IMG/VR virus record: IMGVR_UViG_3300018080_000330
Coordinates: 1-38,833 of that record
DNA from: a virus
Strand: one strand, 5' to 3'
DNA length: 38,833 nucleotides
The notes beneath the pieces are model-generated. The model was not told where the DNA came from and did no database searches. It worked only from the letters and a program-made list of their open reading frames with translations. Positions 11,667-33,906 of the stretch are shown piece by piece. Within the stretch, counting starts at the first letter, position 1. Every line of letters begins with the position of its first letter. Both the position numbers and the translations under genes were made by a program.

Positions 11667-11726
11667 AATAAAAAACCCCCACTTAACCTAGTGGAGGATA
11701 AATTCCTTTCGTAAAATATTGTATCA
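11667..11726 (-). promoter_or_regulatory. Late promoter-hairpin module A
   Basis: TGATACAAT (11726-11718), then AAAGGA, then hairpin CCTCCACT/AGTGGGGG (8 bp, one G-U) with TTTTTT, and ATG 11666 four bases later. Same design as modules at 14421, 21049, 25587, 30840 and 33852. Confidence 0.75.
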
Positions 11727-11750
11727 TACCCATCATTAAAAACTATCATC

Positions 11751-13574
11751 TTACATAGGTGACTCCGCTCCCCCAGAAAACCTAACTCCCAGTAATTTAG
11801 CAATACCAGCCAAACCTAAAGCGGTAGCCGCACCGCCAACAACCCTACCACTATACTTTTTAACAGCTTCAGGAACAGGGGCTTTTAGACCTTCTTTTAT
11901 AACTCTTTTTTGTTCTCCTATTCTTATTGTTTTTAATAGTTTTTCCATATCAAGACCCTCTTTTATCATTTTTGTACCTTTGTCAAAATCAGGTGCTACC
12001 TTGCTTAAATGTTTTCTAATCAACCTTCTATATTCTCTATAGAAACTTTTCTGTAAGCCTGTTCCTGTTTTACCCGCCTGTGTAAACCCGCTATCGGTTA
12101 AATCCCAAATACGCTGAGCGTCTTTTGGATTCATTTTTTTATTTTTTAAAGTTGTCTCTAAACCTTTAGCCAAATCGTCTACCTCATTTATAGATTTTGG
12201 AAAAGCCTTTTTGGCATGCTTAGTCCAATCAATAAACTCTTCATATATAGCGGTACCGTTTACTTTTTTACCTGCCTTTTGTGCTGTGTCTACGGCAGTG
12301 TCTCTTAAAGCACTACCTTGCTTAGCTACTTTTAACCCATCGTCTAATGACTTTACAAGAGTTTTCGGTGTAAATGCTTTTCTGAGTAGTGCTGTGCCGC
12401 CTTTTGTAATAGCTTTGGTAGCCCCTGGTATTTCTAGTGCAGTACCAATCTCCAAACCAATTTTTGCTCCCCTTTTCCAAGGAGACTCATCCACCGATTT
12501 GCTAAACCCTTCCGACATTTCTATGGACTCTGCTAATATAGCGTCTATCAACTCTTCAGCTTCCATGGTTTTACCTTCCTTCAATAGCCTATCCACTTCC
12601 AACCTTGATTTTTCAATAGACTTTAATTTATTTCCTGTCCCTATCGACTTAACAATATCTTGTACTGCGTCTACGGTCTCATCAAAAAGAAACCTTCCAA
12701 CACCCTCACCCGCTCTTGTTAAAGTCCCGCTTAGGGATGGGGTTGCTTCTGGAACTCTTCCCTCTATTTTTTCTCCGGATAATAACTCTTGTTTAAGCTG
12801 TTCCAATTCCTCTGATGGTTCCAGTCCAAATTTTTCTCTAGCTGACTGCATCATTTCTATAGCCTCTGTTGGTGTATCCGTGGCTTGTGGTAACCCCTTT
12901 CCGGCCTGTAATTGTTCAGAAAACGCAATGTTACCAGCGTCACCAGCCATCTTGGCTAATTGTGGTCTTACTGACTCTAAAGTTCTTATATAGGTATTTA
13001 ACCTTTCTGTCGGAGAACCCGGTTGTCCGGGGGCAACTTTTCTTTCTAACTCTTTAAATACTCCTCCGATCCTTCCACCAACACCTGCTTTACCAAAAGC
13101 CAACGGCTGTTCTCCATCAGCACCGAAATATTGTTTTTCTAACAACTCTACAGCTCTAGTTCCTGCTTCACCCTCCTCCGCCTTTTCACTAACCCCTAAT
13201 TGTAATTTAGTTTTTCTATCTATTTCCTCGATTATAGAATCATACAATGAGCTGTTTTGTGGGTCACTCAGTTTGGCGTTAAAAGCCATATCTCTAGTTA
13301 CTGTAACTCCGTTTGGTAATGTAATAGATGGTTCTGCCTGTGTGGTTTCCTCTTTTACCCCTAAATCTAAAGCGGGTGGCGGTATGGTAGTAGGTTGCCC
13401 AACTGCATCACTTACAGGACTTAACATGTCTGTTGACTGTGTGGTTGGAACACTTACAGCACTTGGTTGGGTTGTACTAGATCCGATTAACTCGTAAATA
13501 TTAGGATCAAACTCTTTGTCGTTAGTTAAAGTCCCTGTTTGACCTGTAGATTTTAATTTAACTCTTAATGCCAT
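11751..13574 (-). CDS. Putative internal virion / DNA ejection protein, 607 aa
   Basis: An N-terminal KLKSTGQTGTLTNDKEFDPNIYELI motif precedes a Pro/Thr/Ser-rich linker (residues about 30-80), then mainly helical sequence with Gly-rich and amphipathic segments (GAKIGLEIGTALEIPGATKAI). A C-terminal hydrophobic helix (VVGGAATALGLAGIAKLLG) could insert in membranes. In short-tailed phages one or more large helical proteins next to the tail genes are ejected with DNA, and no tape-measure gene exists here. Function is inferred from composition and position. Confidence 0.6.
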   Translation of the reverse strand: MALRVKLKSTGQTGTLTNDKEFDPNIYELIGSSTTQPSAVSVPTTQSTDMLSPVSDAVGQPTTIPPPALDLGVKEETTQAEPSITLPNGVTVTRDMAFNAKLSDPQNSSLYDSIIEEIDRKTKLQLGVSEKAEEGEAGTRAVELLEKQYFGADGEQPLAFGKAGVGGRIGGVFKELERKVAPGQPGSPTERLNTYIRTLESVRPQLAKMAGDAGNIAFSEQLQAGKGLPQATDTPTEAIEMMQSAREKFGLEPSEELEQLKQELLSGEKIEGRVPEATPSLSGTLTRAGEGVGRFLFDETVDAVQDIVKSIGTGNKLKSIEKSRLEVDRLLKEGKTMEAEELIDAILAESIEMSEGFSKSVDESPWKRGAKIGLEIGTALEIPGATKAITKGGTALLRKAFTPKTLVKSLDDGLKVAKQGSALRDTAVDTAQKAGKKVNGTAIYEEFIDWTKHAKKAFPKSINEVDDLAKGLETTLKNKKMNPKDAQRIWDLTDSGFTQAGKTGTGLQKSFYREYRRLIRKHLSKVAPDFDKGTKMIKEGLDMEKLLKTIRIGEQKRVIKEGLKAPVPEAVKKYSGRVVGGAATALGLAGIAKLLGVRFSGGAESPM

Positions 13575-13580
13575 TTTAGT

Positions 13581-14420
13581 TTAGTCAGGTATGAAGCTGG
13601 TCCCACCACTACTAGCACCAAAAATTCCGTATGGACTTTGTGATGTACCATAACTTTTTGTAGCCAGTGCCTGCCTTATAGCCTCATCAGTTTCAAAACT
13701 AATTAACTCTCTTTGTCTATCAAACTCTAGTTCAGAAGAAGCTAAACTAGCAACCCTCTGTGCTTCCAGATAGTCCAACGAACCCTGTTGATTTAATTTT
13801 GTAAGTAGCTGATCCAACTCACCTTGACGCTCTATACTATAACCAGTCATTTCTCTTGCAGCCCTTTCTGAAATCTGTGCTGCCTCTACCTCAAATGGTT
13901 TTAAAGCCCTTTCTTGTTCAGCTGCTTCTAAACCCAACCTTTGAGATACGTCTTGAGAAGCAAACTGTGCTAACTCTGCAGCCCTTAAAGCCTGTGGTTG
14001 AAGGGTGGAGAGTTGTTCAGAAATTCTCTTTTGTAGTCTTGGTGCAGATATACCAAATTGCTTTGATAGTGTAGCTTCTGTCTCTGGTACTTGCGTAACC
14101 GCTTGTTGTGCTTGAAATGCCCCTTTTTGTAGTTCTGGCAAACCAGCTTCTGTAGATAAACGGGAGTAAATGTCAGATAAAGAAGTTTGACCTGCTAGTG
14201 TTTCTCTATATCTTTTTAAAAAATCTTCCTCTCTAGCTGATTGTTGATCTAAAAGAGACGATCCTGTTGCTGAAGAAGTACTGCCTGTTGAACCCGATTG
14301 ACTACCGCCTTTACTAATATAGTCGGGTAAATCAGCCCATTTTCCAGCCTTCTGACCTTCCTTGTACTTGTTGTACGCTTCTCCTTTTCCGCCAAAATAT
14401 TCTTTTAATGAGTATGCCAT
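13581..14420 (-). CDS. Putative internal virion protein, helical, 279 aa
   Basis: A Ser/Gly/Thr-rich linker (about residues 38-56) precedes a long Glu/Gln/Ala-rich helical region (60-245) without membrane segments; the C-terminus is Gly/Ser-rich. ATG follows module B directly. It stands just before the 607-aa protein, so the pair may be the ejection proteins. No family named. Confidence 0.6.
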   Translation of the reverse strand: MAYSLKEYFGGKGEAYNKYKEGQKAGKWADLPDYISKGGSQSGSTGSTSSATGSSLLDQQSAREEDFLKRYRETLAGQTSLSDIYSRLSTEAGLPELQKGAFQAQQAVTQVPETEATLSKQFGISAPRLQKRISEQLSTLQPQALRAAELAQFASQDVSQRLGLEAAEQERALKPFEVEAAQISERAAREMTGYSIERQGELDQLLTKLNQQGSLDYLEAQRVASLASSELEFDRQRELISFETDEAIRQALATKSYGTSQSPYGIFGASSGGTSFIPD

Positions 14421-14480
14421 ATATAAAAAATGCCCACCGCTATGGGTGAGCTAATTGCCCTTTCTATAAAATTATAACAC
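14421..14480 (-). promoter_or_regulatory. Late promoter-hairpin module B
   Basis: GTGTTATAAT, a perfect extended -10, then AAAGGG, hairpin GCTCACC/GGTGGGC (7 bp) and ATTTTTT, with ATG 14420 right after. The start codon lies 13 nt from a GGTGG that is buried in the hairpin. Confidence 0.8.
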
Positions 14481-14482
14481 AA

Positions 14483-14572
14483 CTAGACTTTTATCTTAAC
14501 GATTTTGTTTTTCAGCTTGTTGTATTCTTCGTCCTTTATTTTTTGTAGTTTTTTTCTTAAATCTTTATCCAT
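14483..14572 (-). CDS. Possible 29-aa lysine-rich protein
   Basis: MDKDLRKKLQKIKDEEYNKL and a basic end. TGGAG about 9 nt before ATG; overlaps the fibre gene by 8 nt and fills the gap exactly up to module B. Short but consistent with local packing. Confidence 0.4.
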   Translation of the reverse strand: MDKDLRKKLQKIKDEEYNKLKNKIVKIKV

Positions 14573-15566
14573 GCGCTTTGCTCCAGAAATTACTATTCGC
14601 CTCAAATTGTTCTTTTGTCATTGTACCAAATCTTAAATCTTTTTCATCTTTACGCTTACCCCATACTTGATATGTACCATCAGTACATTCAATATATTTG
14701 TATGGTGCTACTGTAACTTCCTCAAACAAAGGGTCTATGTTGCCTTTGGTTTCACAAAAGTCCATAAACCAAACCTCTGGGGACTCCATACAGTATAGAG
14801 CATTATATCCTTGGGATGTAGGGAGTATGGCTGTTTTTGCAGCTGACCCTGCAACTTGAATACGGGTATCTCCACTATCATCATCTATTTTTACCTGACG
14901 AGCTGCAGAACCATCATATATAAAAAAAGAGGAATCATCGGAACATCTTAGTATAATGGAATCAGTTGCATCAATGTACACGTCATCATTACCCCATATA
15001 AAAATATCCCTCCCATCAAACGAAGTAAGGTTGACAGAATCGGCATCTTCGTCCAAGTATCCCACCAAGTCATCCCCAGAATCGTAAAGTTCTAAAGAAG
15101 ATTGACTGGCAGTTAACTCTACTCTAGTACCACTTGACGACGTTTTAATTGTTGTACCAGTAATAGTACCCGATGTTATCGTCACCGCATTCATAGAACC
15201 AGCCGTTATAGACCCTAAATTAGCGGTAATTGACGATAAAGTAGCTACAGTCATCTCTGTAGCAGTAATAGTTCCTGCAACAATTTCAGAAGCGGTTATT
15301 GTATTAGCGGCTATCTCTGTAGCGGTTATCGTGTTAGCAGCTATTTCAGAAGCGGTTATCGTGTCGGCGGCTATCTCTGTAGCGGTTATCGTGTTAGCAG
15401 CTATTTCAGAAGCGGTTATTGTATTAGCAGCTATCTCTGTGGCGGTTACCGAATCTTCCATTATCTGCCTGTTTTTTACCTCAAGAGGCAATACCTGCCT
15501 TTGACTTACACGCTCTTTAGCTTCTTCTATTTTTTTCTCAATTTCTAAAGTATCAAATGTACCCAT
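14565..15566 (-). CDS. Tail fibre protein with decapeptide repeats, 333 aa
   Basis: An N-terminal coiled coil (EIEKKIEEAKERV) precedes seven or more repeats of T-[AS]-x-E-I-x-A-x-T-I (about residues 39-105), typical of trimeric phage fibre shafts. Then come beta-rich segments with SGTITGTTIKTSSSGTRVEL, and a C-terminal globular part with Cys and Trp residues (GYNALYCMESPEVWFMDF). AGGA site overlaps the nozzle gene end. Probably a trimeric tail fibre or its distal part. Confidence 0.75.
   Translation of the reverse strand: MGTFDTLEIEKKIEEAKERVSQRQVLPLEVKNRQIMEDSVTATEIAANTITASEIAANTITATEIAADTITASEIAANTITATEIAANTITASEIVAGTITATEMTVATLSSITANLGSITAGSMNAVTITSGTITGTTIKTSSSGTRVELTASQSSLELYDSGDDLVGYLDEDADSVNLTSFDGRDIFIWGNDDVYIDATDSIILRCSDDSSFFIYDGSAARQVKIDDDSGDTRIQVAGSAAKTAILPTSQGYNALYCMESPEVWFMDFCETKGNIDPLFEEVTVAPYKYIECTDGTYQVWGKRKDEKDLRFGTMTKEQFEANSNFWSKAHG
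15256..15455 (-). repeat. 30/60-bp tandem repeat coding for the fibre shaft
   Basis: Alternating units ending in gctatctctgtagcgg and gctatttcagaagcgg on the plus strand, 30 bp each and near-identical, so expansion is recent. Confidence 0.85.
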
Positions 15567-17395
15567 TATTCCTGACTTTCCTCGGAAAGATCATCATAAA
15601 TTAATTTTACTGCAATTATTTTAATAAACGTATTGCTTGTACTAGCTAGATTAAAACCGAATTCAATTTCTTTTGCACGAGTGTAAATAGGTAGCTCAAC
15701 CCTAGTGTCACCAACCGTACTAGCTGCCGTACCAGTAGTAAATGAAGCAGCCCTGTCTAGCTTATACTTAGGTGTAACAGATTGACCTGTAGTTAAAGCC
15801 TCAAATTCTATTATTAAATTTATAGGTAAAAACTGACGGTCTGGGTCTCCACCATCGAAAATTAAAGTCTCAAGCGATCCTGAAGAATTAGCAGTATCCC
15901 CTAAAGCTATCTTGTCTACCCCATAGGATGTATTGTCTCTCCAACCAATATATAGATCAGTACCCATAGACTTGACCATACCTATCTTTAAAGTGGTAGC
16001 AGAAACCGTATCTGTAGAAATTGTGTAAGGAAAATTAAGAGAGTCTGGCAATTGCGTCTGTTGACTGCCAAGCTCGTATATACCTTGCTCTAACGCTGTT
16101 CCGTCGTCTGTTGACCCAGATACACCTATCAAAGTTCTACCCTCATGCTCGGTTATAGCTCCCGGATAGACCTCTAACTTCTTACCCCTAGATAGCTTGG
16201 GAATGTTACCAACCACATCAACAAACGGGTCATTTCCTGTATACATAGACCCATCGTTACCATAAACTCCTAACAACTTCCCCTTAGCGTTGTGTATGGC
16301 GTTTGGTGCTCCAACAGTGACATCGGTGTAAAAATTATATGAAGAACTAATACCATCCCAAAAATATAGTCTAGCTGCTTCTGCGGCACTAACAGAACCG
16401 CCCTTTATCGCAGCCGCCACAACAAATTCCTCAAACTTAGCTATCGACCTAACCTCAAAGCCCGGATCGAATGTAATCTTGTTCGGTGTGTAGGTAGCTT
16501 GATCCCAAGTAGCCAAATACCTACTGTTTCCTATTATCAATGTATCATCAATCACTACCATAGGATGGAACGTAGCTGAGATTAAAATACCAAACAAAGT
16601 AGAAAACTCTGCATCCTCTAAATCGGTATCAGTTCCCGTGTCAACCCCACCGTCTGCTACCGTAGAAGTGACATGAAAATGGTAGCTGTTTCCTATAACC
16701 ACCCGTAATGGAGTAGCAAATGTAAACGTAACGTCACCTGTTGACATACTACCGTTGGCTATAGTTTTACTTCCTATAGTAGTGTTATTTGAGTCATGAA
16801 CCGTCACTGTCCAGTTTCCAGTACCAACAACATCAACATCTATTATTACTGCTTTTAGTGGGTCTTTGGCTGGGGTGAAAGTTTGTCTGGCCGTTGCCGC
16901 CTCACTTATTGTTGTGGGTGGGACATAGTCTGCTGATCCTGTGCTACCACCGGACTGGTCTTTATCGTTTGTACCGTCGGATAAAAAAGAGTCGTCAAAT
17001 GCGGGTGTACCAGTTAATAGTCCATACCTCCCAAGCTCTGCTTCTAGGGCGTAATACAGGTAGTTATCAAATACCTTAAGACCCTCACCAGAAGAATTAG
17101 AAACAGTCCTTAGAGAACTCCAAACTCCAGCACTTGTTTCACGATATATTTTACCCCCTTCTCCAGTAAAATATCTGTTTGTATCATAGGGAGAGCCGTC
17201 TTCACCCCAAGTGGGAAGTGACGTTACAGTAGACCCAGATACCTTTGATGTTTTTCTTGATAGTGTTATGTAAGAGGGATCTTCAAAAGGATTAAGATTT
17301 TTCATGAACTTAACGGAGTTAGCAACATCAATCTTCTCTCCCATTGTGCCAATACCACCACTAAAATTTTTGATTACTAGTTTGTCCTTAGCCAT
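15566..17395 (-). CDS. Putative tail nozzle protein, 609 aa
   Basis: ATG at 17395 is preferred over an in-frame GTG 24 nt earlier because MAKDKLVIKNFSGGI looks like the conserved beginning and the GTG overlaps the previous gene. Beta-rich throughout, with a propeller-like middle (DDTLIIGNSRYLATWDQ, FEEFVVAAAIKGG, GKLLGVYGNDGSMYTG) and a C-terminal part (PKYKLDRAASFTTG...YTRAKEIEFGF) like podoviral nozzle/stabilisation proteins. It follows the adaptor gene. An inserted beta-sandwich (about residues 150-260, TFTPAKDPLKAVIIDVDVVG) may be an Ig-like module. Confidence 0.65.
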   Translation of the reverse strand: MAKDKLVIKNFSGGIGTMGEKIDVANSVKFMKNLNPFEDPSYITLSRKTSKVSGSTVTSLPTWGEDGSPYDTNRYFTGEGGKIYRETSAGVWSSLRTVSNSSGEGLKVFDNYLYYALEAELGRYGLLTGTPAFDDSFLSDGTNDKDQSGGSTGSADYVPPTTISEAATARQTFTPAKDPLKAVIIDVDVVGTGNWTVTVHDSNNTTIGSKTIANGSMSTGDVTFTFATPLRVVIGNSYHFHVTSTVADGGVDTGTDTDLEDAEFSTLFGILISATFHPMVVIDDTLIIGNSRYLATWDQATYTPNKITFDPGFEVRSIAKFEEFVVAAAIKGGSVSAAEAARLYFWDGISSSYNFYTDVTVGAPNAIHNAKGKLLGVYGNDGSMYTGNDPFVDVVGNIPKLSRGKKLEVYPGAITEHEGRTLIGVSGSTDDGTALEQGIYELGSQQTQLPDSLNFPYTISTDTVSATTLKIGMVKSMGTDLYIGWRDNTSYGVDKIALGDTANSSGSLETLIFDGGDPDRQFLPINLIIEFEALTTGQSVTPKYKLDRAASFTTGTAASTVGDTRVELPIYTRAKEIEFGFNLASTSNTFIKIIAVKLIYDDLSEESQE

Positions 17396-17397
17396 AG

Positions 17398-18351
17398 TTA
17401 AGACAAGGTAGAACTCCACCTCTCGTCAAATCTACTAACCCTACGTTTTACCCTATTTATCACTTTGGAGTTGCTTCTCCTAGAATATCTTCTGATAGCG
17501 TCTAAAAGTCCACCAGCTGCATTCTTAGGCAACCTGCCGGAGTTGTTATAATCTAAAGTCCAGAAATAATTGTTATGGTATTGAGCCGCAGTAAAGTCCT
17601 TCTTAGGTCCTGCATAAAAATCAGCGGCTGCACCGTGTGGCAAAAGCTCGTGTAGTTCTGGTGGTATTTCTGGTGCTTCCCCTATAGTATATGAAGCCCC
17701 AGCTGCAGTAGACCCTTCCCAAACAGTTTCTAACTCTATGGAAGTTGTACTGGTAAAAGAGGCGACTCTATAAAATGTTGGGTCATTATCAGTTTTAAAC
17801 CACCTGCCTACCATTGATGCAGTAAAAGTAGTACCGGAACCAGTAACCGTGGCATCATTGTTTGTTACAGTGACACTTCCAGTTGTATAGTCATCGGCTG
17901 TCATATCACGATCTAGCATGTTTGCCAAAAGAGTTATAGTATCACCATCCTCTGCTGGTATAGGCCATATCTCAAAGTGATCTCTCATAGGAAATATAAA
18001 TTGAGGAATAGTTGTACCCGAAAAATCTATCTCGTTTAACCTGTTCCACTCTAATTGAGAGTTAACAATGTCTAAAGGATAATCTACATCACCAATAGAT
18101 AGCGTAGCAGATTGTATTGGTGGATAAATGTTTGGTGGGTAATGATACCTCTGTTGGTTTTCCACCGTTAAAGCTGTGCGTGGTAAATCCCTCATGACAT
18201 AGCTTTGCATTTTTCTTTGAATAAAGTGCATTCTTTTGTTCAGGTGTTCTTTTATAAAATTAGCTATAGTAGAGGAAGCAATACTCCCACTAGCTTGAGA
18301 AATGTAATCCTTTGTCGTTGTTTGTAATTCTGTAAATGTTTGTCTTGCCAT
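17398..18351 (-). CDS. Head-tail adaptor protein, 317 aa
   Basis: Starts MARQTFTELQTTTKDYISQ, then SIASSTIANFIKEHLNKRMHFIQRKM, the N-terminal helices of podoviral adaptor proteins. Then PPNIYPPIQSATLSIGDVDYPL and FEIWPIPAEDGDTI, also familiar in that family. A Ig-like insertion (about residues 165-235: TVTNNDATVTGSGTTFT) is a common decoration of adaptors in uncultured phages. A basic C-terminal tail. It sits between the fibre genes and the nozzle, as expected. Confidence 0.72.
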   Translation of the reverse strand: MARQTFTELQTTTKDYISQASGSIASSTIANFIKEHLNKRMHFIQRKMQSYVMRDLPRTALTVENQQRYHYPPNIYPPIQSATLSIGDVDYPLDIVNSQLEWNRLNEIDFSGTTIPQFIFPMRDHFEIWPIPAEDGDTITLLANMLDRDMTADDYTTGSVTVTNNDATVTGSGTTFTASMVGRWFKTDNDPTFYRVASFTSTTSIELETVWEGSTAAGASYTIGEAPEIPPELHELLPHGAAADFYAGPKKDFTAAQYHNNYFWTLDYNNSGRLPKNAAGGLLDAIRRYSRRSNSKVINRVKRRVSRFDERWSSTLS

Positions 18352-21048: not shown

Positions 21049-21105
21049 AAAAAAAACCCCGCCTTTTACAGCGAGGATAAATTCCTTTCCATTAAATTAT
21101 AGCAC
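21049..21105 (-). promoter_or_regulatory. Late promoter-hairpin module C
   Basis: GTGCTATAAT (perfect extended -10), AAAGGA, hairpin CCTCGC/GCGGGG (one G-U) with an 8-nt loop and TTTTTTTT, then ATG 21048 directly. The -10 region overlaps the last codons of the 55-aa gene. Confidence 0.82.
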
Positions 21106-25456: not shown

Positions 25457-25457
25457 A

Positions 25458-25586: not shown

Positions 25587-25648
25587 AGTTAAACAAAAAA
25601 TCCGCCCATAAAGGCGGACTAAATATCCTTCTCAACTCATTTTATCAC
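25587..25648 (-). promoter_or_regulatory. Late promoter-hairpin module D
   Basis: GTGATAAAAT, then AAGGA, then hairpin TCCGCC/GGCGGA (6 bp) and TTTTTT, ATG 25586 nine bases later. The promoter starts in the stop codon of the coiled-coil gene. Confidence 0.78.
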
Positions 25649-25954: not shown

Positions 25955-26217
25955 AATATTATTTCTACCTCCTTCTCCACATCTTCCCTGTTCAAAAGAG
26001 GGTCTTTTCCTTTAGTATTCAAGACAAAATCTACTAAATGTTTTTTCAGTTTCAACCCTACAGTTCTAGGAACACTTATAACCTCTTGTTCTGGAGAGGG
26101 TATATCGTATTTAACTCCTTCAAAAGTCCAAGAAAAAGGAACAGAAACAGGATTATACAGATGTATAGTATCAGATGAATTTTTATCGGCTAATCGCCTT
26201 AATTCACGTACATTCAC
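25951..26217 (-). CDS. Hypothetical protein, 88 aa (GTG start)
   Basis: VNVRELRRLADKNSSDTIHLYNPVSVPFSW, then GVKYDIPSPEQEVISVPRTVG. GTG at 26217, 12 nt after the stop of the beta-helix gene, no clear ribosome site. Beta-rich core with a helical C-terminus. Unknown. Coupled to the coiled-coil gene. Confidence 0.55.
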   Translation of the reverse strand: MNVRELRRLADKNSSDTIHLYNPVSVPFSWTFEGVKYDIPSPEQEVISVPRTVGLKLKKHLVDFVLNTKGKDPLLNREDVEKEVEIIL

Positions 26218-26229
26218 AATTTAATTATT

Positions 26230-27201
26230 TCACGAGTTATTTACACCAATTCCAATAGCACTAGTAGTCGATGTGTAAGGCTCAAAGAACAGCTTGTTAG
26301 AGGCTGACGCTTCCCAGTCGTCTGCACCGACCATAAGCTGTCTACCCGTCATTAACACCGCACAAGTTTGAGTTTGTGCCGATATGTCAAATACCGCAGC
26401 TATTTTGTCCGCCGCATTAGTCCATTTAGCCATCCAAGTACAATTCCTAAATTCATTTACACCAGAGATACCACCTGTACCAGTAGATTTAACATGCAAT
26501 GCCGCCGTATTATCAGCGTTCATGGTAAAAAAGCAATCCTCAAATAAGTTTTTGCTACTAGAAGAAATAAACTCTAAACTAGCGTTTGATGTAGACCTAG
26601 CAATAGTGTCATCTCCTATAGTACAGTGTTTAAAAGTGTTGTTAACAGCCCCCGTCATGGCAATGTGTCTAGCTGTAGCGTCATCACCAGCTGTGGTGTG
26701 ACCAATACCGAAAAAGTGTACGTTCTCAAAAAAATTGTTATTTCCGGTTAAACTAACCAAAACATCATTACTAGCCTGAAGAGTAGATAATTGTATGTTT
26801 TTAAATATGCAACCCTTACCAGATATTGTTATACAGGGGTCAATAGAGTCTGTAGTCCAAATAACTCTTGATCTTGGAGACATAAATGTTGGGGCTGTGT
26901 TACCTATTAAATGGCAATAGCTCTTATCCCATGTAATAGTTGCCGCCTCGGATGTGCCACCTGTACCACCCGGAACCATAATAACTACATCGTGGTTGTG
27001 TGTAATCAAGCTATCCTCTGCCGCAGTTATAGAGGCAAAGGCATCTGTAGGTCTTGTACCCCCGTTAGTGGTGTCACTCCCGTTTGTAGGGTCAACATAA
27101 AAAGTTTTACCCACATAAGGTATACCTAAAATACCAGCTACGTGATCGGGAATTATAGCCCTGTTATCATCACGTCTCTGTGCTCCTGTTATTAAACCCA
27201 T
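26230..27201 (-). CDS. Right-handed beta-helix structural protein, 323 aa
   Basis: A short N-terminal anchor (RRDDNRAIIPDHVAGILGI) precedes a parallel beta-helix with the FYVDPTNGSDTTNGGTRPTDAFASI entry motif of DUF1565/pectate-lyase-like folds, and many stacked NNFFENVHF, NTFKHCTIG, NLFEDCFF coils. AAGGAG site before ATG. Same fold class as the 340-aa protein upstream, so two such proteins lie between capsid and fibre genes. Probably displayed on the virion to bind glycans. Confidence 0.78.
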   Translation of the reverse strand: MGLITGAQRRDDNRAIIPDHVAGILGIPYVGKTFYVDPTNGSDTTNGGTRPTDAFASITAAEDSLITHNHDVVIMVPGGTGGTSEAATITWDKSYCHLIGNTAPTFMSPRSRVIWTTDSIDPCITISGKGCIFKNIQLSTLQASNDVLVSLTGNNNFFENVHFFGIGHTTAGDDATARHIAMTGAVNNTFKHCTIGDDTIARSTSNASLEFISSSSKNLFEDCFFTMNADNTAALHVKSTGTGGISGVNEFRNCTWMAKWTNAADKIAAVFDISAQTQTCAVLMTGRQLMVGADDWEASASNKLFFEPYTSTTSAIGIGVNNS

Positions 27202-27205
27202 ATTG

Positions 27206-27430
27206 TTACTCCTTTTTCTTTATTCTAATATTTTCTATAGAACCAAAACAATCAAATACTTCTTTTGTATCTTGTATAAAGGTTAAAAGCCTTTCATTTT
27301 GAGGAATTGTTAAAGATACAGGATTGGTTGTTTTTATAGAGGCAACACCATCCGTATTAAACTCTATCTCTGCAGCAATCTCTATACCACCAACATTAAA
27401 TTTAAAGTCATGTGTATATTTTGTATCCAT
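27206..27430 (-). CDS. Small beta-rich protein, 74 aa
   Basis: MDTKYTHDFKFNVGGIEIAA, then EIEFNTDGVASIKTTNPVSL, predicted all-beta. No Shine-Dalgarno: predicted leaderless from TGATATATT. Between the two beta-helix genes, so likely structural. Confidence 0.6.
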   Translation of the reverse strand: MDTKYTHDFKFNVGGIEIAAEIEFNTDGVASIKTTNPVSLTIPQNERLLTFIQDTKEVFDCFGSIENIRIKKKE

Positions 27431-27436
27431 AAACTA

Positions 27437-27445
27437 AATATATCA
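27437..27445 (-). promoter_or_regulatory. Extended -10 promoter, leaderless start
   Basis: TGATATATT, 6 nt (TAGTTT), then ATG 27430. Compare TGGTATAAT-TTAGTT-ATG at 31915, whose spacer is nearly the same. Confidence 0.6.
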
Positions 27446-27487
27446 TAGCATAAGTTTAATCTTAAAAACAAACCAGACTTAAACACC

Positions 27488-27511
27488 AATAGCCCCATCT
27501 AAGGGGCTATT
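27488..27511 (-). terminator. Hairpin after the 340-aa beta-helix gene
   Basis: AATAGCCCC-ttagat-GGGGCTATT, a perfect 9-bp stem with a 6-nt loop, 20 nt after the stop at 27531. Downstream GGTGTTTAAG is only weakly U-rich. Ends the preceding transcript or insulates the next promoter. Confidence 0.65.
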
Positions 27512-27530
27512 AGTACGTAAATCAAGAACT

Positions 27531-28553
27531 CTAAGCAATACTTATTTCTGCAGTTTCGCTTGCCGCTCCAGATTGACCATAGTTACCTGCAACGTGCATA
27601 GTAGTAGGGATTTTAGCTCCTGTACCTGCCGCTTTGAAAGTAATAGTAGCACCTGTAGTACCAGTCAAACAACCAAAGTAGTTGTTAACTAACATTCCTG
27701 TACAACCAGTTGCATCAATATATCTAGCATTTGAAGCTGAACCTATAGCTGGAAGCTGATGGAAAATATTGTGTGCAATGGTTACTCCATCGATACCTGA
27801 TCCACCCGCAAGATAGAGGTTACAATCGGTTGACGCTGCTGGTCCTGAAAACTCGTTGCCAATAATCCTAACATCTTGAGGTCTAGTATTAGTGGTTCCG
27901 GGTAGGACAATGTCCCCAACGTTTCTATAGAAAGTATTACCTTCTATTCTAACCTGCCATGCGTTACCTGCTGAAGGCCAGTTAATAGCCCCACCAGTTG
28001 CAGCGTTAGTTGCTGTTGTACCTTTACAGTTTTTGAAGTGACAACCACCGATGGTTGTACCAAAAGCTGCTTTTGTTGAGTAGTCATCGTCTAACAATAT
28101 ACCCCCTCCAGTATTTCCTGCTCCATTAAAACCCAAGTTTGCAATTAAACAACCCGGTGCTCTAATTCTCAAAATGTGTTGGGTAGTGACAGAACCATCT
28201 TTAAGCTGTGGTAAACCCCCTTGTGTCATCCCTCTGCTAACACCGATCAACGAAAGGCTAGACTTTGCGTAAGGAATAGTTAAATTCTCTTCATAACTAA
28301 CTGGGTCACCTGTGTAGTCGGTGTGGGTTCTACCTGCTATATAGATAACATCACCCGCACCAGATGAGTCAATAGCGTCTTGAATTGTCGAATAAGCATC
28401 TTCCCAAGTTGTACCTGTTCCACCAGAGCTTTTATCACCATCTACGAACCAAACATCACCGCTTTCTACTGGTGTTAATGGAGATATAATATTTTCTGGA
28501 TATACTTTGTGTCCATACATAAACGCTGGTATATAATCTTTTACATTTGCCAT
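27531..28553 (-). CDS. Right-handed beta-helix structural protein, 340 aa
   Basis: MANVKDYIPAFMYGHKVYP anchor, then WFVDGDKSSGGTGTTWEDAYSTIQ, the DUF1565-like entry motif, then repeated NLGFNGAGNTGGGI, IGGCHFKNCKGT, IEGNTFYRNVG, IIGNEFSG, IAHNIFHQL coils. AGGTGAAAAATT ribosome site. It follows the capsid genes directly. Likely a capsid- or neck-attached adhesin. Closest relative in the window is the 323-aa protein. Confidence 0.8.
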   Translation of the reverse strand: MANVKDYIPAFMYGHKVYPENIISPLTPVESGDVWFVDGDKSSGGTGTTWEDAYSTIQDAIDSSGAGDVIYIAGRTHTDYTGDPVSYEENLTIPYAKSSLSLIGVSRGMTQGGLPQLKDGSVTTQHILRIRAPGCLIANLGFNGAGNTGGGILLDDDYSTKAAFGTTIGGCHFKNCKGTTATNAATGGAINWPSAGNAWQVRIEGNTFYRNVGDIVLPGTTNTRPQDVRIIGNEFSGPAASTDCNLYLAGGSGIDGVTIAHNIFHQLPAIGSASNARYIDATGCTGMLVNNYFGCLTGTTGATITFKAAGTGAKIPTTMHVAGNYGQSGAASETAEISIA

Positions 28554-28597
28554 AATTTTTCACCTACTTTCATATAAAAATATGTACTACTAACTAA

Positions 28598-28756
28598 TTA
28601 CAATAACTTACTTAATTCTGCATAACCGTAGGCTGACTCATAAGCCTCGTGTAAATCTGGTCTGTTTTTTAATTCTTCAAGAGGAACTCCTCTAAACTCT
28701 ACTTCTTCTCTAGGTTTTTCTTTTAGGACTTCTTCTGAAACTTTTTTCTTTGACAT
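28598..28756 (-). CDS. Small structural-region protein, 52 aa
   Basis: ATG at 28756 is chosen because AGGTG lies 9 nt upstream. An in-frame extension to 28873 passes through a strong hairpin and looks like an untranslated leader. Sequence MSKKKVSEEVLKEKPREEVEF, then LEELKNRPDLHEAYESAYGYAEL. Charged and helical; unknown. Confidence 0.65.
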   Translation of the reverse strand: MSKKKVSEEVLKEKPREEVEFRGVPLEELKNRPDLHEAYESAYGYAELSKLL

Positions 28757-28778
28757 AAATTTCACCTGCTTTCTATAT

Positions 28779-28816
28779 AAAAAAGCCCCACCGCAAGTGA
28801 GGCTTTTTACACTTGC
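28779..28816 (-). terminator. Attenuator-like leader: terminator and competing hairpin
   Basis: Terminator AAAGCCTCAC-ttgc-GGTGGGGCTTT with TTTTTT (10 bp). Its left arm overlaps CACTTGC, which forms a perfect 7-bp alternative stem with GCAAGTG (28816-28810 with 28799-28793). The two folds exclude each other. It lies between the 250-aa gene and the 52-aa gene. Confidence 0.7.
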
Positions 28817-28905
28817 TACCCTTTTTACTTTCTCCCACCTGAATAGTCCTTTTCGGGGACATTTTCTCGTCATCGGCGGTAGCTAAATTATTAAATTGTT
28901 AAAAC

Positions 28906-29658
28906 TTAATCTATCGTTAAATAGATAGAGTTAAATTCAGTTGCTGTACCGGTTGCCATCATCTGACCAACTTCAAACTCTGCGTCAACGTCTGAATAGA
29001 CACCAACTGCACCGTTTACTTGATCTGAAATAGTAGCTTTATATCCTACTGTTACCCCAGAAGTGTCAGATAAAACAGCTGCCATACCTCTGGTCTTTAA
29101 CCAACCATAGTTAGCAACAGAAACATCCCAGTCTTGCACTGCTACTCCTGCCGCTCTTTCAGCTATAAGTTGAGAAATAGCCACATTATTCCAAGGGTTT
29201 CTAACTAACTCCACTTCCGAGGAAGTCGTAGCAGCTGTTTTAAGACCTCTTTCAAGGTAAACATTTACTGCCTCGCTACCTGCCACAGAAGTATCGTGTC
29301 GTGCTATTTTGTAGAACTCACCTTCTGGACTGTTGTCGTTAAATATCAACCAACCCTCATTGTACTCGTTAGCGTCTACTGCTGTAGCACCTACAGTTGG
29401 AGCTACTACCTTATCTCCAGCCGAAGCTGCTGCACTTAATGCAACGTTTTGGTGGTTATCTTCTCTACTTAAAGAAACATATAGCTTTCCTGCAACTACA
29501 TCAGTACCACTTGAAATAACTCTAGTATACCTGTATAGGTCTCCGTTTTCAGCGATACCCAACGCACCCAATGCGTGCATTTGAGTATCTTCTTCAACGT
29601 AAATGTCTTGTGAGCCAATGTGAACTGACCCTGTTAATCTATGTGATTTACTTGCCAT
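28906..29658 (-). CDS. Probable capsid decoration / head-associated protein, 250 aa
   Basis: Directly downstream of the major capsid gene with a perfect AGGAGGTGA site. Beta-rich: HRLTGSVHIGSQDIYVEE, VAGKLYVSLSREDNHQNV, VYLERGLKTAATTSSEVELV, and a C-terminal NYGWLKTRGMAAVLSD...VGQMMATGTATEFNSIYL, which resembles head-decoration beta-tulip proteins of uncultured phages. Family not certain; position strongly suggests a head component. Confidence 0.6.
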   Translation of the reverse strand: MASKSHRLTGSVHIGSQDIYVEEDTQMHALGALGIAENGDLYRYTRVISSGTDVVAGKLYVSLSREDNHQNVALSAAASAGDKVVAPTVGATAVDANEYNEGWLIFNDNSPEGEFYKIARHDTSVAGSEAVNVYLERGLKTAATTSSEVELVRNPWNNVAISQLIAERAAGVAVQDWDVSVANYGWLKTRGMAAVLSDTSGVTVGYKATISDQVNGAVGVYSDVDAEFEVGQMMATGTATEFNSIYLTID

Positions 29659-29668
29659 ATTTCACCTC

Positions 29669-30790
29669 CTAAACTCCGGTCACACCAGTCAACTTACCCT
29701 GTCTTCTGGGTTGTTTACCGATGGTCTGACCAATTACATAAAAGCGACCGATCATTCCTGCTTGGTTAGGCATCATCTGTTGTTTCTGAAAGAACCAACC
29801 AGCGTCTGAAGGAACAGATTGTTCTGCCCCAACACCCTCAGTTGCTCTATTCGTAGCTAAAGAAACTTTCTCTAACTGCCCACGATACTTTGCTGGAACT
29901 GACGTACTACCTCTCCATTCTAAATATCTTTCATTCAATGCGTACCACGCACCAGACGTTGCGGCGTCGTCTGCAATAACAGAAATACCTCTATAGGACA
30001 ACGCTGTAAAACCAGCTGCCCCCTTTAAATCAACTCTACTACGAGATAAAGAGTTACCTCTTAAACTTAATGCCGGAAACCCAACACTTGCATATTCAGC
30101 CCTAACGTTAGGTTGCAATAACCTTTCATACAAATCCCAAACAGTTTTGGTTGTAAGATGCAACGTTGGGTATTCTGAAGCAATACCTGCTGCTGAAATA
30201 GCTGACTCTAACGTAGCTAGTTTAGCTAAGGTTAAAGTCCCACCCGAAGCAGTAACAGTACCATTCAATACTGAATAGGTTGTTCTTGACTGACCACCTA
30301 TTGTACCTGCAGTAGTTCCATCATCAACATGAGACTCCAAACCTAAAGGTTTGTTTGTTGCAGAAGTACCATCATAAACAGCTTCTCCTAAACTTTGTAC
30401 TGCTTCCATTACCGCCTCTTCTAATTTGTAGAGGTCTAAATCAACGGACTGTTCTGGTCCATCGTTTGCAAAAGACTCGAGCATCACTGAAACAACTGGC
30501 TGTGCAAATGCAGTTCTTGCATATGATAATTCGATCAATGTATCTGAAGCAGCTGAGGATAAAGTTTCTAATCCTGCGAAAAACTCACCCAAACCAGAAT
30601 CGACAACTTTAATAGGAATATCTGCGGTTTTACCTCTAAAAGGTTTACCCATACCCATTAACCTAGAAGCATATGTTCTACTTTCTAAAACGTTGTCTAC
30701 AACTTTTCTGTATAGATTACGCTCCGTAGTAGCTCTAACTCTAGCTCCGGGACTAATGCCGTCTGGCGTTATACTTGGTGTACCTGCCAT
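29669..30790 (-). CDS. Major capsid protein (HK97-fold type), 373 aa
   Basis: N-terminal region LYRKVVDNVLESRTYASRLM, then IPIKVVDSGLGEFFAGLE, and the middle NKPLGLESHVDDGTTAGTIGG, a motif common in HK97-fold capsid proteins. A-domain-like TLHLTTKTVWDLYERLLQP and C-terminal YRGISVIADDAA...ALNERYLEW. Size 373 is usual for phages without a fused protease. It follows the scaffold gene, as in scaffold-dependent assembly. AGAAAGGA site. Preceded by module F. Confidence 0.85.
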   Translation of the reverse strand: MAGTPSITPDGISPGARVRATTERNLYRKVVDNVLESRTYASRLMGMGKPFRGKTADIPIKVVDSGLGEFFAGLETLSSAASDTLIELSYARTAFAQPVVSVMLESFANDGPEQSVDLDLYKLEEAVMEAVQSLGEAVYDGTSATNKPLGLESHVDDGTTAGTIGGQSRTTYSVLNGTVTASGGTLTLAKLATLESAISAAGIASEYPTLHLTTKTVWDLYERLLQPNVRAEYASVGFPALSLRGNSLSRSRVDLKGAAGFTALSYRGISVIADDAATSGAWYALNERYLEWRGSTSVPAKYRGQLEKVSLATNRATEGVGAEQSVPSDAGWFFQKQQMMPNQAGMIGRFYVIGQTIGKQPRRQGKLTGVTGV

Positions 30791-30839
30791 AGTTTTTTCC
30801 TTTCTAAAAACTTAATTAAATAATAGTTAAGATAGACAA

Positions 30840-30892
30840 AAAAAACCCCGCCGTTAAGCGAGGTTAAATACCTATCCCTTATATATAAGCAT
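30840..30892 (-). promoter_or_regulatory. Late promoter-hairpin module F (major capsid gene)
   Basis: TGCTTATAT (extended -10 variant), GGATAGG block, hairpin ACCTCGC/GCGGGGT and TTTTTTTT. Here, unlike the others, a separate 40-nt leader with its own AAGGA site follows before ATG 30790. Confidence 0.65.
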
Positions 30893-30907
30893 AAAATGGG
30901 TAAAATT

Positions 30908-31762
30908 TCAACCCACTAAATCTTCAAAGGATGATTTGTGCAGTCTTTCGTAGGGTACTTCTTCTCCTTCTACCTCTATTGGTTTTTTACCGCCAGAAAC
31001 AGGTGCTGTTGAACCTGCTGGCTTGTTCTTTTTATAAAATCTATTGTAAATGTGAATAACATCGGATATTGGAGATAACCCCTTCTTCTCTCTATCCCCC
31101 GAAACCTTGTACATGGTTTCAAATATTTCAGCAGAAGCAACGATACCGGGGTCTTTTTTATCTTCTTCTGACAAGGACTCCCCTTTACTTAGTTTTTCTT
31201 TTATTATGGGAGAAACATCTGGAATATGACCTTCTTTGCGTAAATAATCTATTTGACTGTCCCATTCCTTGTTAAGAGACTCCAACCTTTTCTCATTATC
31301 TTCTGCAGATTTTCTATCAGACTCCTGTTTAATTTTAGCCTCTTCTGCTTCTTTAAATTTTAAATATTCATAAGTACCTTCAGATTGTTCTTTCCAAGTT
31401 GCAGGTCTATCCTCTCCCCGTTTTTCCCATGGAAATTTAAAACCAGCGTCTTCTGCGTCTTTTTTATCTTCTTTGGTAATGTTTAATGATTTGAGTATTT
31501 CTTCTTTATATTCTTCTCTAGTTTTATTTTTAACTTCTTCCACCACATCTTCGAGTGGGATTTCTGGTTCTTTTGGTTCTGGGTCTTTTGGGACTATAGT
31601 TTCTACTTCTTCTTTTTTGGGTTCTTCTTCTTTGTCTGGCTCTGGCTCTTTTTCAACGACACCATCTTTTTTAAGAAATTCCTTAATAGCTTCATTGTTA
31701 GTTTCGTCAATAAATTCTTCTTTTTTTTCTTCAGGTAAATCCTGCTTTTTTTCTTCTGTCAT
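30908..31762 (-). CDS. Capsid scaffolding protein, 284 aa
   Basis: Highly acidic and lysine-rich, N-terminal half disordered with EEKKEEFIDE and PDKEEEPKKEE runs, then helical (EEYKEEILKSLNITKEDKKD), ending in the basic-aromatic VPYERLHKSSFEDLVG tail that may bind capsid protein. No enzyme motifs. Immediately before the major capsid gene, which is the standard place of a scaffold. No Shine-Dalgarno; 6 nt after the 48-aa gene, so coupled. Confidence 0.8.
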   Translation of the reverse strand: MTEEKKQDLPEEKKEEFIDETNNEAIKEFLKKDGVVEKEPEPDKEEEPKKEEVETIVPKDPEPKEPEIPLEDVVEEVKNKTREEYKEEILKSLNITKEDKKDAEDAGFKFPWEKRGEDRPATWKEQSEGTYEYLKFKEAEEAKIKQESDRKSAEDNEKRLESLNKEWDSQIDYLRKEGHIPDVSPIIKEKLSKGESLSEEDKKDPGIVASAEIFETMYKVSGDREKKGLSPISDVIHIYNRFYKKNKPAGSTAPVSGGKKPIEVEGEEVPYERLHKSSFEDLVG

Positions 31763-31768
31763 AATTAC

Positions 31769-31915
31769 TTATTGCTTTTCAGCACTATAACGTGCTTTCA
31801 TAGCAGACATAGCTCTATTCTTATTTAACTTTGTTTTGTTGCCTGCCACTACCTTACCAGTGTTCTTGTTAACTACTGTATAACTATCACCTTTTTTCTT
31901 AATCGAATAAGGCAT
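31769..31915 (-). CDS. Small conserved phage protein, 48 aa
   Basis: MPYSIKKKGDSYTVVNKN, then TGKVVAGNKTKLNKNRA and AMKARYS. Matches the widespread tiny phage family that begins MPYxIKK and carries an NTGKVVxxxxTK motif. Starts 6 nt after TGGTATAAT with no ribosome site, so predicted leaderless. A longer in-frame reading to 31963 lies inside the portal gene and is less likely. Confidence 0.75.
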   Translation of the reverse strand: MPYSIKKKGDSYTVVNKNTGKVVAGNKTKLNKNRAMSAMKARYSAEKQ

Positions 31916-31921
31916 AACTAA

Positions 31922-31930
31922 ATTATACCA
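31922..31930 (-). promoter_or_regulatory. Extended -10 promoter, leaderless start
   Basis: TGGTATAAT, 6 nt (TTAGTT), then ATG 31915. The box is embedded in the last codons of the portal gene (GTA TAA is its final codon and stop). Confidence 0.75.
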
Positions 31931-33851
31931 TACCTCCCGTTGGCTCAGAGGTAGCACGCTCAACTGCAGAAACTTCTGGTGACTGTGGGGTTGTTGTAGG
32001 CATTTGACCTAAAGCACCCACCTGCTCCTCGGTAGTCTCTCTACCTTCAACAAACTTTTGAAAATATAGGGCTGGTTGGGTTTGGAACAATATCAATTTC
32101 TCGGCTCTACCCTCTGGGTCGCTAGCCTCAATGTCCTTGTAAAACTGAACAGGATCGATCATGTTTATACCTGCTAATTCAAACGCCTCTCTCTTACGAC
32201 GTAACTTGTCCACACTAGAAGCTGAAACCTCAACCAACATGCCATCCTCAACTAAGTCTCTGTTTATAGATTGAAAAGTCACGCTTGAGTCATTACCCGT
32301 AATTCTTTCTAGGTGGTCTTCAGTGTAAAACAACCTTATAAACTGCATAGCCCATCCCGCCATTTGCTCTGCGGCGTGGTTTATTGTGTCCTCTACCTCG
32401 TCGTCAATCCTTGTGAAATCTGATTCTTTAAATAGCTGGGTTTTAGTGGCTGGGTCTGGTCCTTCCCTAACGCCCCTTAAAGCTGCGTTAGTACCAAGTT
32501 TTGAAAATAACCTCTCTCTGTTTTGTATTTGATCTTGAAACAATGCGGCATTGGGAGAGACACCGGGAATAAATGAATATACCTTGTTCAACTCACCATC
32601 TACCAATATATCTTGGTCCGGGTTTCCCATGTCAATCTCTTCAACATCCGCTGCGTTAAGACCCGACTCTGTAGAAAAAACACTCTTACCCTTTGCCGAG
32701 TTAGCCATATCAGTTATTTGTCTACCTCTTATGTTAATGTTGTCTTGCAGATAAATACCTTGCTCAATTCTGGAAGTCTCATCATACGGCTGTTTTCCTA
32801 ACTGTTCGTATCCCATAAATATAAATGGTTTCTTGGGGTTGCTAAAATAGTTATAAAAAATCTCTTGTTGGTCTAATCCCAAGCCAGTGTCACCAAACAA
32901 AAAGGCGTTCCTCAAGTCTGTTTCCTCTGCTTTTACCTTTTTTCCTGTTTCTACGTCATATTTAAAAAGAATTGTGTCTCCTTCCCAATCCCAGTACGGG
33001 TTCTTAACCTTATCTAAAACCAACCTCTTGTATTTCCACACCACACCCTCAAGCCTTACCCACTCTTCACCCTCTTTTTTATACCAAGTAAACCAAACCT
33101 CGGATATTCTCAACTTGCTTGCCATCTTCTTCTCACTTACAGTCTGATCTTTCTCCCACTTTAGTTCATCAAACAACGCATTTTTTTTAGAAGGCCAGCG
33201 CATTAAAATTTCTTTTATCGTTAAATCGTAGTGGTGGGCTATCCAAAGCATATCGTCTGGGTTATTAGATGTAGCAGTGTGGTCAACGTCTATATTATCG
33301 GGGTGGATGTTTTCAAAAACGTAGTCTCCCAACTTGCCCCTTTCGGAGTCCCACCTAGCCTTGATAATACCTGTAAAATATATTGGTCTGTGCTTAAAAG
33401 CTTTGCCTAAAACCTCTCTATTTTCCCTCTTTCTCAACCTATTGTTGATAACCTCGGTTAATTCTTTAGAAACTTTCTCGCTCTCTTCGCTTTCGTCTGA
33501 TGGTATAACCAACAGGTCTGGAACACGGGAAACAGCTACAGCCTTTAAAGTTCCAGCGGATTCAAATATTATATTGTCTTGGTATCTAGCACTATATTTT
33601 TTTAGCTGATTTTCCTCTTCCAATCTAGCTGTTTGTTTTCCTAGGTAATACTCTTCGTTTTTGGCTCTTCTCTCATATAAGCCCTTATTAATGAAAAACT
33701 TGCGGGAGTCTTTGATTAAAGTATCTACAACGTCCACAATGTCACTGTCTTTAAGCTCTAGTTTTAAAGGATCAGTTTCACTCACTAAGCCCTCGAAGTC
33801 TGTAACTGTTGGTTCTACTTGAAAAGTATTCTCGCCAAAAAATTCTTCCAT
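31923..33851 (-). CDS. Portal protein, 642 aa
   Basis: The large size fits podoviral portals. N-terminal LKLELKDSDIVDVVDTLIKDSRKFF, then RAKNEEYYLGKQTARL; a mid part EVWFTWYKKEGEEWVRLEGVVWKYKRL as a beta wing, then FKYDVETGKKVK; KPFIFMGYEQLGKQPYDETSRIEQGIYLQDNINIRGRQITDM and a stem/crown region (EDTINHAAEQMAGWAMQFIRLFY). C-terminal Pro/Thr-rich tail. The dodecameric ring for DNA packaging. Precedes the scaffold. ATG directly after module G. Confidence 0.85.
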   Translation of the reverse strand: MEEFFGENTFQVEPTVTDFEGLVSETDPLKLELKDSDIVDVVDTLIKDSRKFFINKGLYERRAKNEEYYLGKQTARLEEENQLKKYSARYQDNIIFESAGTLKAVAVSRVPDLLVIPSDESEESEKVSKELTEVINNRLRKRENREVLGKAFKHRPIYFTGIIKARWDSERGKLGDYVFENIHPDNIDVDHTATSNNPDDMLWIAHHYDLTIKEILMRWPSKKNALFDELKWEKDQTVSEKKMASKLRISEVWFTWYKKEGEEWVRLEGVVWKYKRLVLDKVKNPYWDWEGDTILFKYDVETGKKVKAEETDLRNAFLFGDTGLGLDQQEIFYNYFSNPKKPFIFMGYEQLGKQPYDETSRIEQGIYLQDNINIRGRQITDMANSAKGKSVFSTESGLNAADVEEIDMGNPDQDILVDGELNKVYSFIPGVSPNAALFQDQIQNRERLFSKLGTNAALRGVREGPDPATKTQLFKESDFTRIDDEVEDTINHAAEQMAGWAMQFIRLFYTEDHLERITGNDSSVTFQSINRDLVEDGMLVEVSASSVDKLRRKREAFELAGINMIDPVQFYKDIEASDPEGRAEKLILFQTQPALYFQKFVEGRETTEEQVGALGQMPTTTPQSPEVSAVERATSEPTGGMV

Positions 33852-33906
33852 AAAAAAATATCCACCTCTACGGGTGGACTAAATATCCTTTGTATTATTC
33901 TAGCAC
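33852..33906 (-). promoter_or_regulatory. Late promoter-hairpin module G (portal gene)
   Basis: GTGCTAGAAT, AAAGGA, hairpin TCCACC/GGTGGA (6 bp) and TATTTTTTT, ATG 33851 next. The only obvious ribosome site, GAGGTGG, is held in the hairpin arm. Confidence 0.8.

Follow-up and report, generated by a model that had tools for sequence, protein, structure and literature searches.

Six promoter-linked pairs of overlapping hairpins in a phage genome form a candidate attenuator of late transcription

The viral record IMGVR_UViG_3300018080_000330 of IMG/VR was analyzed over its whole stretch of 38,833 nucleotides (nt; the window), which carries on its minus strand the portal gene, the major capsid gene and further late genes, together with six copies of a short element (the module) in which a promoter is followed directly by a terminator-like leader. 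Although classed as linear, the window holds a complete genome of 38,710 bp, because it has a direct terminal repeat of 123 bp (positions 1-123 and 38711-38833) and a GroEL gene that reads across the junction (38253-38693 plus 1-~1150, with a Cpn60 Pfam match on the right-end piece), and the six modules are therefore the full set.

All six copies lie on the minus strand where an earlier, sequence-only reading had placed them, as found by direct reading and by scanning for small hairpins that have an ATTTA-like loop and run into a stretch of T, which returned exactly these six places and no plausible seventh (Table 1). That reading had described a -10 box TGnTAnAAT, a block of AAAGGA plus an ATTTA-like motif, a G+C-rich stem, a U tract and a nearby ATG. 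We observe the extended -10 box in five of the six copies, with TGCTTATAT at 30840 instead, whereas AAAGGA is strictly present at 33852, 21049 and 11667, takes the form GAAGGA at 25587 and AAAGGG at 14421, and is absent at 30840. The ATG follows the U tract by 0 to 8 nt in five copies and lies ~50 nt further off at 30840. The ATTTA-like block is indeed there, but it is the loop of a second hairpin that had been overlooked, whose 3' arm is at the same time the 5' arm of the G+C-rich stem. Each module consists of two overlapping hairpins, H1 (A:B, ~4 bp, loop AUUUA) and H2 (B:C, the terminator stem plus U tract), which are mutually exclusive because both use segment B (3 to 4 nt shared); the A:B hairpin is the main new element. 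A joint definition requiring a -10 box, a short hairpin and a terminator hairpin with U tract matches five places on the minus strand, none on the plus strand and none in each of 100 dinucleotide shuffles, and it misses the module at 30840 solely because the -10 box there is TTATAT. The core of the sequence-only reading, a promoter followed by a covarying, terminator-like structured leader at late genes, is thus supported.

Table 1. Coordinates of the six modules and of two contrasting promoters in the window (ORF, open reading frame; SD, Shine-Dalgarno sequence)
Module	Feature	Sequence or loop structure	Positions	Strand	Remarks
1	Extended -10	(TGC)TAGAAT	33897-33902	minus	read from sequence
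1	H1 (A:B)	GGAT[ATTTA]GTCC	33876-33888	minus	hairpin scan
1	H2 (B:C)	GTCCACC-CGTAGA-GGTGGAT	33860-33879	minus	4-nt overlap with H1
1	U tract		33852-33859	minus	
1	Portal gene (phrog_156)		31923-33851	minus	ATG 33851
2	-10	TTATAT after TGC	30883-30888	minus	capsid-gene copy
2	H1	AGGT[ATTTA]ACCT	30861-30873	minus	
2	H2	AACCTCGCT-TAAC-GGCGGGGTT	30844-30865	minus	
2	U tract		30838-30843	minus	
2	Segment D	TGTCTATCTT	30829-30838	minus	pairs with pre-A/A GGGATAGGTA (30869-30878), helix H3
2	Major capsid protein gene (phrog_9953)		29669-30790	minus	ATG 30790, own SD AGAAAGGA
3	Extended -10	(TGA)TAAAAT	25639-25644	minus	
3	H1	GGAT[ATTTA]GTCC	25616-25628	minus	
3	H2 and U tract	AGTCCGCCT-TTAT-GGGCGGATT	25599-25620	minus	
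3	42-aa ORF			minus	ATG 25586, ahead of 1096-aa ORF
4	Extended -10	(TGC)TATAAT	21096-21101	minus	
4	H1	AGGA[ATTTA]TCCT	21074-21086	minus	
4	H2	CCTCGCT-GTAAAA-GGCGGGG	21057-21076	minus	
4	U tract		21049-21056	minus	
4	56-aa ORF			minus	ATG 21048, ahead of further late genes
5	Extended -10	(TGT)TATAAT	14471-14476	minus	
5	H1	GGGC[AATTA]GCTC	14448-14460	minus	
5	H2	GCTCACC-CATAGC-GGTGGGC	14432-14451	minus	
5	U tract		14425-14431	minus	
5	279-aa ORF			minus	ATG 14420
6	Extended -10	(TGA)TACAAT	11718-11723	minus	
6	H1	AGGA[ATTTA]TCCT	11695-11707	minus	
6	H2	CCTCCACT-AGGTTA-AGTGGGGG	11676-11697	minus	
6	U tract		11670-11675	minus	
6	104-aa ORF			minus	ATG 11666, ahead of C39-peptidase region
	Contrasting promoter	TTGACA-18-TATAAT (perfect)	8319-8348	minus	no hairpin; ATG 6 nt further on, leaderless; non-structural region
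	Contrasting promoter	TTGACA-17-TATAAT (perfect)	5881-5909	minus	leaderless, no hairpin; non-structural part

With respect to relatives, which are loci from capsid searches of IMG/VR (L025-L106), we observe the design of promoter plus segments A, B and C in 91 distinct candidates on capsid-related contigs, with up to 7 copies per phage genome; many of these contigs are fragmentary, the number of modules counted depends on simple scanners, and related genomes are not independent in the statistics given here. In a spacing scan made without requiring A:B, terminator-like hairpins with an upstream -10 box peak sharply on the gene strand where the distance between -10 box and H2 is 16 to 21 nt (84 cases), and the same hairpin/-10 pairs taken at all distances number 118 on the plus strand versus 25 on the minus strand. 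The stems differ while the design is kept, as in GAC/GTC (L035), GAGT/ACTC (L039), GGCT/AGCC (L042), GGTC/GACC (L045), AGCG/CGCT (L049) and CGAG/CTCG (L065), and among 62 well-formed modules there are 39 different A/B stems. Pairs of G with U occur as well (13 of 171 pairs). The A:B pairing score is 7.86, compared with 5.19 (standard deviation, 0.37) for leaders swapped between genomes, the best position being sought anew for each swapped leader (n = 91; maximum of 500 swaps, 6.29). Over whole genomes, A:B pairing has a z of 6.3 to 7.0 at promoter-coupled terminators versus -0.9 at 96 promoterless terminators of the same genomes, and in 43 distinct capsid-gene leaders it has a z of 5.5. In 46 of 49 cases the best H1, placed without any overlap constraint, shares 2 nt or more with the 5' arm of H2, and at least five T in the 8 nt after the hairpin, tested without selecting for a U tract, are found at 25/26 hairpins with promoter and H1 versus 41/387 other hairpins. 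Both the swaps between genomes and the variation within genomes argue against shared descent as the cause of the pairing.

Beyond these contigs, locus L166, which comes independently from another collection, has modules at its portal and capsid genes. The scan found no complete module in six genomes of the wider family; in two genomes (G008, locus L051; G014, locus L060) A/B/C leaders are visible by eye at the capsid gene. Exact 16-nt scans with two module sequences and a gapped degenerate pattern returned, among viral contigs, chance matches and one known member (L026/L161), and the design with this exact loop is therefore not widespread outside the capsid clade.

The modules are unevenly distributed over promoters. 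Among the promoters of these genomes that match the consensus at 11 or 12 of its 12 positions, a module follows all 10 that stand immediately before the capsid gene, whereas just 1 of the 41 located elsewhere is gated in this way. Two perfect promoters in the non-structural part of the window have no hairpin at all (Table 1). Many genes in these phages start 5 to 8 nt past a TATAAT box and have predicted leaderless mRNAs (several in L025; 8324, 5886 and 31927 in the window).

The loop of H1 is kept within a genome while the stems differ: the window has AUUUA/AAUUA, L042 has AAUUUA/AAAUUUA, L065/L066 have ACACA and L039 has mostly AUUUUA. Its identity within genomes is 0.73 versus 0.49 with permuted labels (z = 6.4), which makes it the most genome-specific part of the module, segments A and B reaching a within-genome z of ~3.3 and the loop of H2 one of 0.7. 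This pattern is the trace that would be expected from a genome-specific binding partner, though it is not proof of one.

In folding calculations, H2 is a good terminator by sequence, with a mean of -12.2 kcal/mol and the form of an intrinsic (rho-independent) terminator, namely a G+C-rich stem of 5 to 12 bp, a short loop and an adjoining U tract. Given an H2 of this stability and a U tract that belongs to the module itself, the paradox raised by the sequence-only reading, that each promoter would halt its own transcript, is real. As in an attenuator, one segment, B, can pair either with the upstream arm A or with the terminator arm C, and H1 is weak (mean of only -1.9 kcal/mol). Equilibrium folding of the nascent RNA has H1 ~80% formed from the emergence of B until the polymerase is ~6 to 9 nt past H2, a span in which the second arm and most of the U tract are copied, after which H2 takes over. 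Intrinsic terminators release their transcript ~6 to 9 nt past the stem. In this folding model stopping would be the default, H1 would stand ready in the decision window, and read-through would require something that holds H1, as in antiterminators that depend on a protein. An autonomous kinetic escape by way of H1 is unsupported at equilibrium, as H1 alone does not compete with H2.

We read the module as a possible promoter-proximal attenuator in which late promoters would be locked until a factor stabilizes A:B, an interpretation that, on what the DNA offers, we hold to be evenly poised between right and wrong. RNA polymerase of host type would start ~6 nt past the -10 box, so that the first ~10 to 15 nt of RNA carry segment A. 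As B emerges, the weak, short hairpin H1 would form (~4 bp, its loop typically of the form A..UA), and as C emerges, B:C would normally displace A and complete a strong stem directly against the U tract, so that the transcript would stop at ~40 nt. A factor produced or activated late in infection would bind or stabilize H1, probably via its loop, and by holding the outer bases of B would keep the base of the terminator stem open, so that transcription could enter the gene. Early promoters, which fall into this sequence class too, have neither module nor leader, and hence the lock, rather than the promoter sequence, would set late timing. The promoter, the overlap of A:B with B:C, the covariation, the U tract and the distribution of the copies can all be read in the DNA; that transcripts would actually terminate here and that a factor would act at a late time is what we infer. 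More tentatively, and with some doubt on our part, a phage- or host-encoded RNA-binding factor with phage-specific loop recognition could open all late promoters of one genome at once via H1, a distributed form of boxB-like licensing under which strong promoters of host type would be silent until late, in phages of probably uncultivated Patescibacteria.

A number of observations weigh against the attenuator reading. Removing A in silico hardly changes the formation of H2, and because of this and the weakness of H1 the model depends on a factor. An antiterminator at every copy, one of the options listed by the sequence-only reading, has the best support, yet the search for a factor brought up none: in 14 genomes there is no match to the NusG family PF02357 of the LoaP/RfaH type (the host may encode one), to Phage_antitermQ PF06530 or to CAT_RBD PF03123 (BglG/LicT), ANTAR PF03861 gives a single weak hit below cut-off in one genome, and all-against-all protein clustering yields no regulator cluster specific to module-bearing genomes, only structural genes and GroEL/GroES. 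Furthermore, the H1 loop is not constant across the clade and varies even within one genome (L070, the exception), and some module copies have a weak H1 or none. The portal gene of L025 uses a leaderless promoter, TATAATCGTTATATGG, without hairpin, where the window has promoter plus module, indicating that the module is a leader inserted between start site and AUG and is useful but not indispensable. Finally, the pairing of A with a further segment in capsid-gene leaders, described next, fits mRNA protection equally well.

In capsid-gene leaders the AUG is further off and has its own SD, and the 5' end together with A pairs with a segment D just past the U tract, as in TAGGTTAA/TTAACCTA (L062), TAGGAAATA/TATTTCTTA (L050) and GGGATAGGTA/TGTCTATCTT (the window). 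The A:D pairing has a z of 4.6 in the near group of capsid-gene leaders, and of 3.6 at capsid copies versus -0.2 at modules leading directly into a gene (direct modules). The capsid copy of the window has its 5' end paired in the fold of minimum free energy, which lies at -19.9 kcal/mol (z = -4.75). In the proposed sequence of events A would at these copies later pair with D behind the U tract, leaving a paired 5' end on the mature mRNA, and the third helix supports an additional role in 5'-end protection. At the capsid leaders of L042 and L081 there is a second terminator-like hairpin between module and capsid gene (GGGTAATTTAACCCGCCC... and ACCCACGCTTTGTGGGTTTT, respectively).

This helix also bears on an alternative that we consider unlikely, in which the module is an insulator and a 5' cap: H2 would stop transcripts arriving from the upstream operon, local ones would often read through, the leader fold (B:C, with A:D added at capsid genes) would shield the abundant late mRNAs against decay that starts from the 5' end, and H1 would be a folding intermediate. 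The 5' stabilizer or insulator proposed by the sequence-only reading gains support at the capsid-gene copies, where the 5' end, in the window copy included, pairs with the segment just past the U tract, and most coding-strand terminator-like sites of the window are modules, which hence lie at operon boundaries too. However, H1 alone does not delay H2, and since local and upstream transcripts share A, B and C, nothing lets the local ones escape. Ordinary terminators of these genomes lack A, which ties A to promoters rather than to insulation, no upstream partner for A was found, a 5' cap has no need of a U tract, and the direct modules are without A:D. A 'diode' model, in which an upstream D pairs with A and frees B:C solely in upstream transcripts, was rejected, the observed values at 25 to 100 nt being those of the null.

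We regard it as improbable that the module is a translation device, in which A or the G-rich C arm serves as ribosome site, H2 spaces or hides it, H1 exposes C, and the gene after the U tract is tuned accordingly. Direct modules do have their AUG 5 to 17 nt past H2, and the interval contains no SD. Five copies of the window have an SD-like A, and the sixth has a separate SD. The 5' arm of H2 is C-rich (89% of modules versus 42% of ordinary terminators), which makes A and C G-rich, and both bind the anti-SD better than controls. Yet module and C-rich arm are equally present (92% versus 91%) at distal capsid copies, which have their own SD beyond. One option of the sequence-only reading, AAAGGA as a ribosome site that the folded hairpin brings near the ATG, is not generally supported; this purine block is SD-like here, but relatives have GAGC, GGCT, CGAG, GACT, CGAC or CGG in its place, of which the first four illustrate how often A is not SD-like, and what is conserved of the segment across relatives is its pairing with B, not SD likeness. 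Moreover, such a device would not require the U tract found in 25/26 hairpins, and leaderless starts are common in these phages.

A protein-free, put-like antitermination in cis, in which the nascent two-hairpin leader would attach to RNA polymerase, which would then pass H2 and later terminators without stopping, appears very improbable. The element stands directly downstream of a promoter, as HK022 putL does, two adjacent hairpins are possible (H1 plus the apical part of H2), the element covaries and no factor was found; against this, H1 takes up bases that H2 needs, H2 has a U tract and the stems vary freely. That the A-loop-B inverted repeat, which lies at a fixed place beside each promoter, is a protein site in the DNA at ~+3 to +16 with an incidental RNA hairpin is scarcely credible, given that the arms differ while pairing is kept, G-U included, that the asymmetric loop has a constant orientation, and that B pairs with C too.

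The putative attenuator can be compared with known systems. Rfam 15 returned no family above its gathering score, and the hits to Arrc14 and PsrR1, below threshold, were dismissed as chance. The late genes of phage lambda have one late promoter, pR', with a terminator ~194 nt away and the Q protein bound to promoter DNA. We find here, too, a late promoter of host type with a terminator behind it, and late expression would await licensed read-through; unlike in lambda, there are up to 7 copies, a terminator ~12 nt past the start site and conserved RNA pairing, and the Q family is unmatched. BglG/LicT-RAT, HutP, ANTAR and classical attenuators resemble the module in that antiterminator and terminator share a segment and the weaker structure needs stabilizing, but here the antiterminator is much shorter (~4 bp), and it lies at the extreme 5' end and occurs in many copies per phage genome; its loops of 4 to 8 nt also form no dual hexaloop as in ANTAR. 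The boxB element of lambda N is a small RNA hairpin with a ~5-nt loop, and its loop specificity differs among related phages. H1 differs from it in overlapping the terminator and in its variable stem and 4- to 8-nt loop. HK022 putL lies just downstream of a phage promoter and acts in antitermination through two long coexisting stem-loops of ~70 nt in total (PMC9378689), whereas the hairpins of the module are mutually exclusive, one being the terminator itself, and the whole leader is ~40 nt. Phages of the T4 type have cassettes known as promoter early stem-loops (PeSL; Arbiol et al. 2010, Comeau et al. 2014, cited in PMC4503421), and like these the module is a composite of promoter and then terminator-like stem-loop repeated between phage genes. 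As far as the citing paper describes them, PeSLs are a feature of early genes and have been tied to the shuffling of modules, in contrast to the elements described here, which stand at late/virion genes with an extra A segment. A loose scan of 103 kb of T4 gave just 2 promoter-terminator pairs and no A:B excess (3.65 versus 3.92; standard deviation, 0.61). Taken as it stands in these genomes, the module appears to be a new form of putative attenuation or antitermination outside any named system.

Because the nearest named phages by capsid and portal proteins are the unassigned Manatee Spring phage MW202566 (capsid 37%, portal 28%) and the TM7 phage DolZOral124_53_65 (33% and 24%), the host probably belongs to the Patescibacteria, ultra-small bacteria, as judged from distant protein similarity. 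The 28.9- to 34.2-kb stretch has no nucleotide match among 50,697 phage records. Searches of genome contigs with capsid and terminase found no prophage in any genome of the Candidate Phyla Radiation (CPR), one query giving nothing and the other a single match, L166 (PHFX01000165.1), a 39.8-kb phage contig of the same family, with modules, in a metagenome-assembled genome labelled Candidatus Brocadia sp. WS118; this bin may be mis-assigned, or it may point to a different host. Chaperonins are recurrent across the phage family, the TM7 phage included, and the small gene upstream of GroEL in the window (1148-1438) clusters with genes at the GroES position of relatives. The non-structural region of the window also has NUDIX-domain and nucleoside diphosphate kinase genes (3174-4325 and 2363-2740). 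In two relatives the terminase large subunit ORF is 1125 and 1160 aa long instead of ~490 aa (G015:9721-13098, locus L124; G016:20416-23898, locus L128), which suggests the insertion of in-frame sequence, for example an intein. Hairpins, terminators and promoters go unmentioned in two recent papers on phages of Patescibacteria (PMC13059738, PMC12911398).

Late promoters of host type need a delay, and a terminator lock of less than 60 bp, present at as many as seven operons, would solve this in a compact and general way. If the proposed mechanism is true, these phages would hold a ready-made set of orthogonal switches with shared logic and genome-specific loops. To our knowledge, almost nothing is known about transcription control in the CPR, and the module would then be among the first inferred examples of how phages with a probable CPR host regulate their genes.

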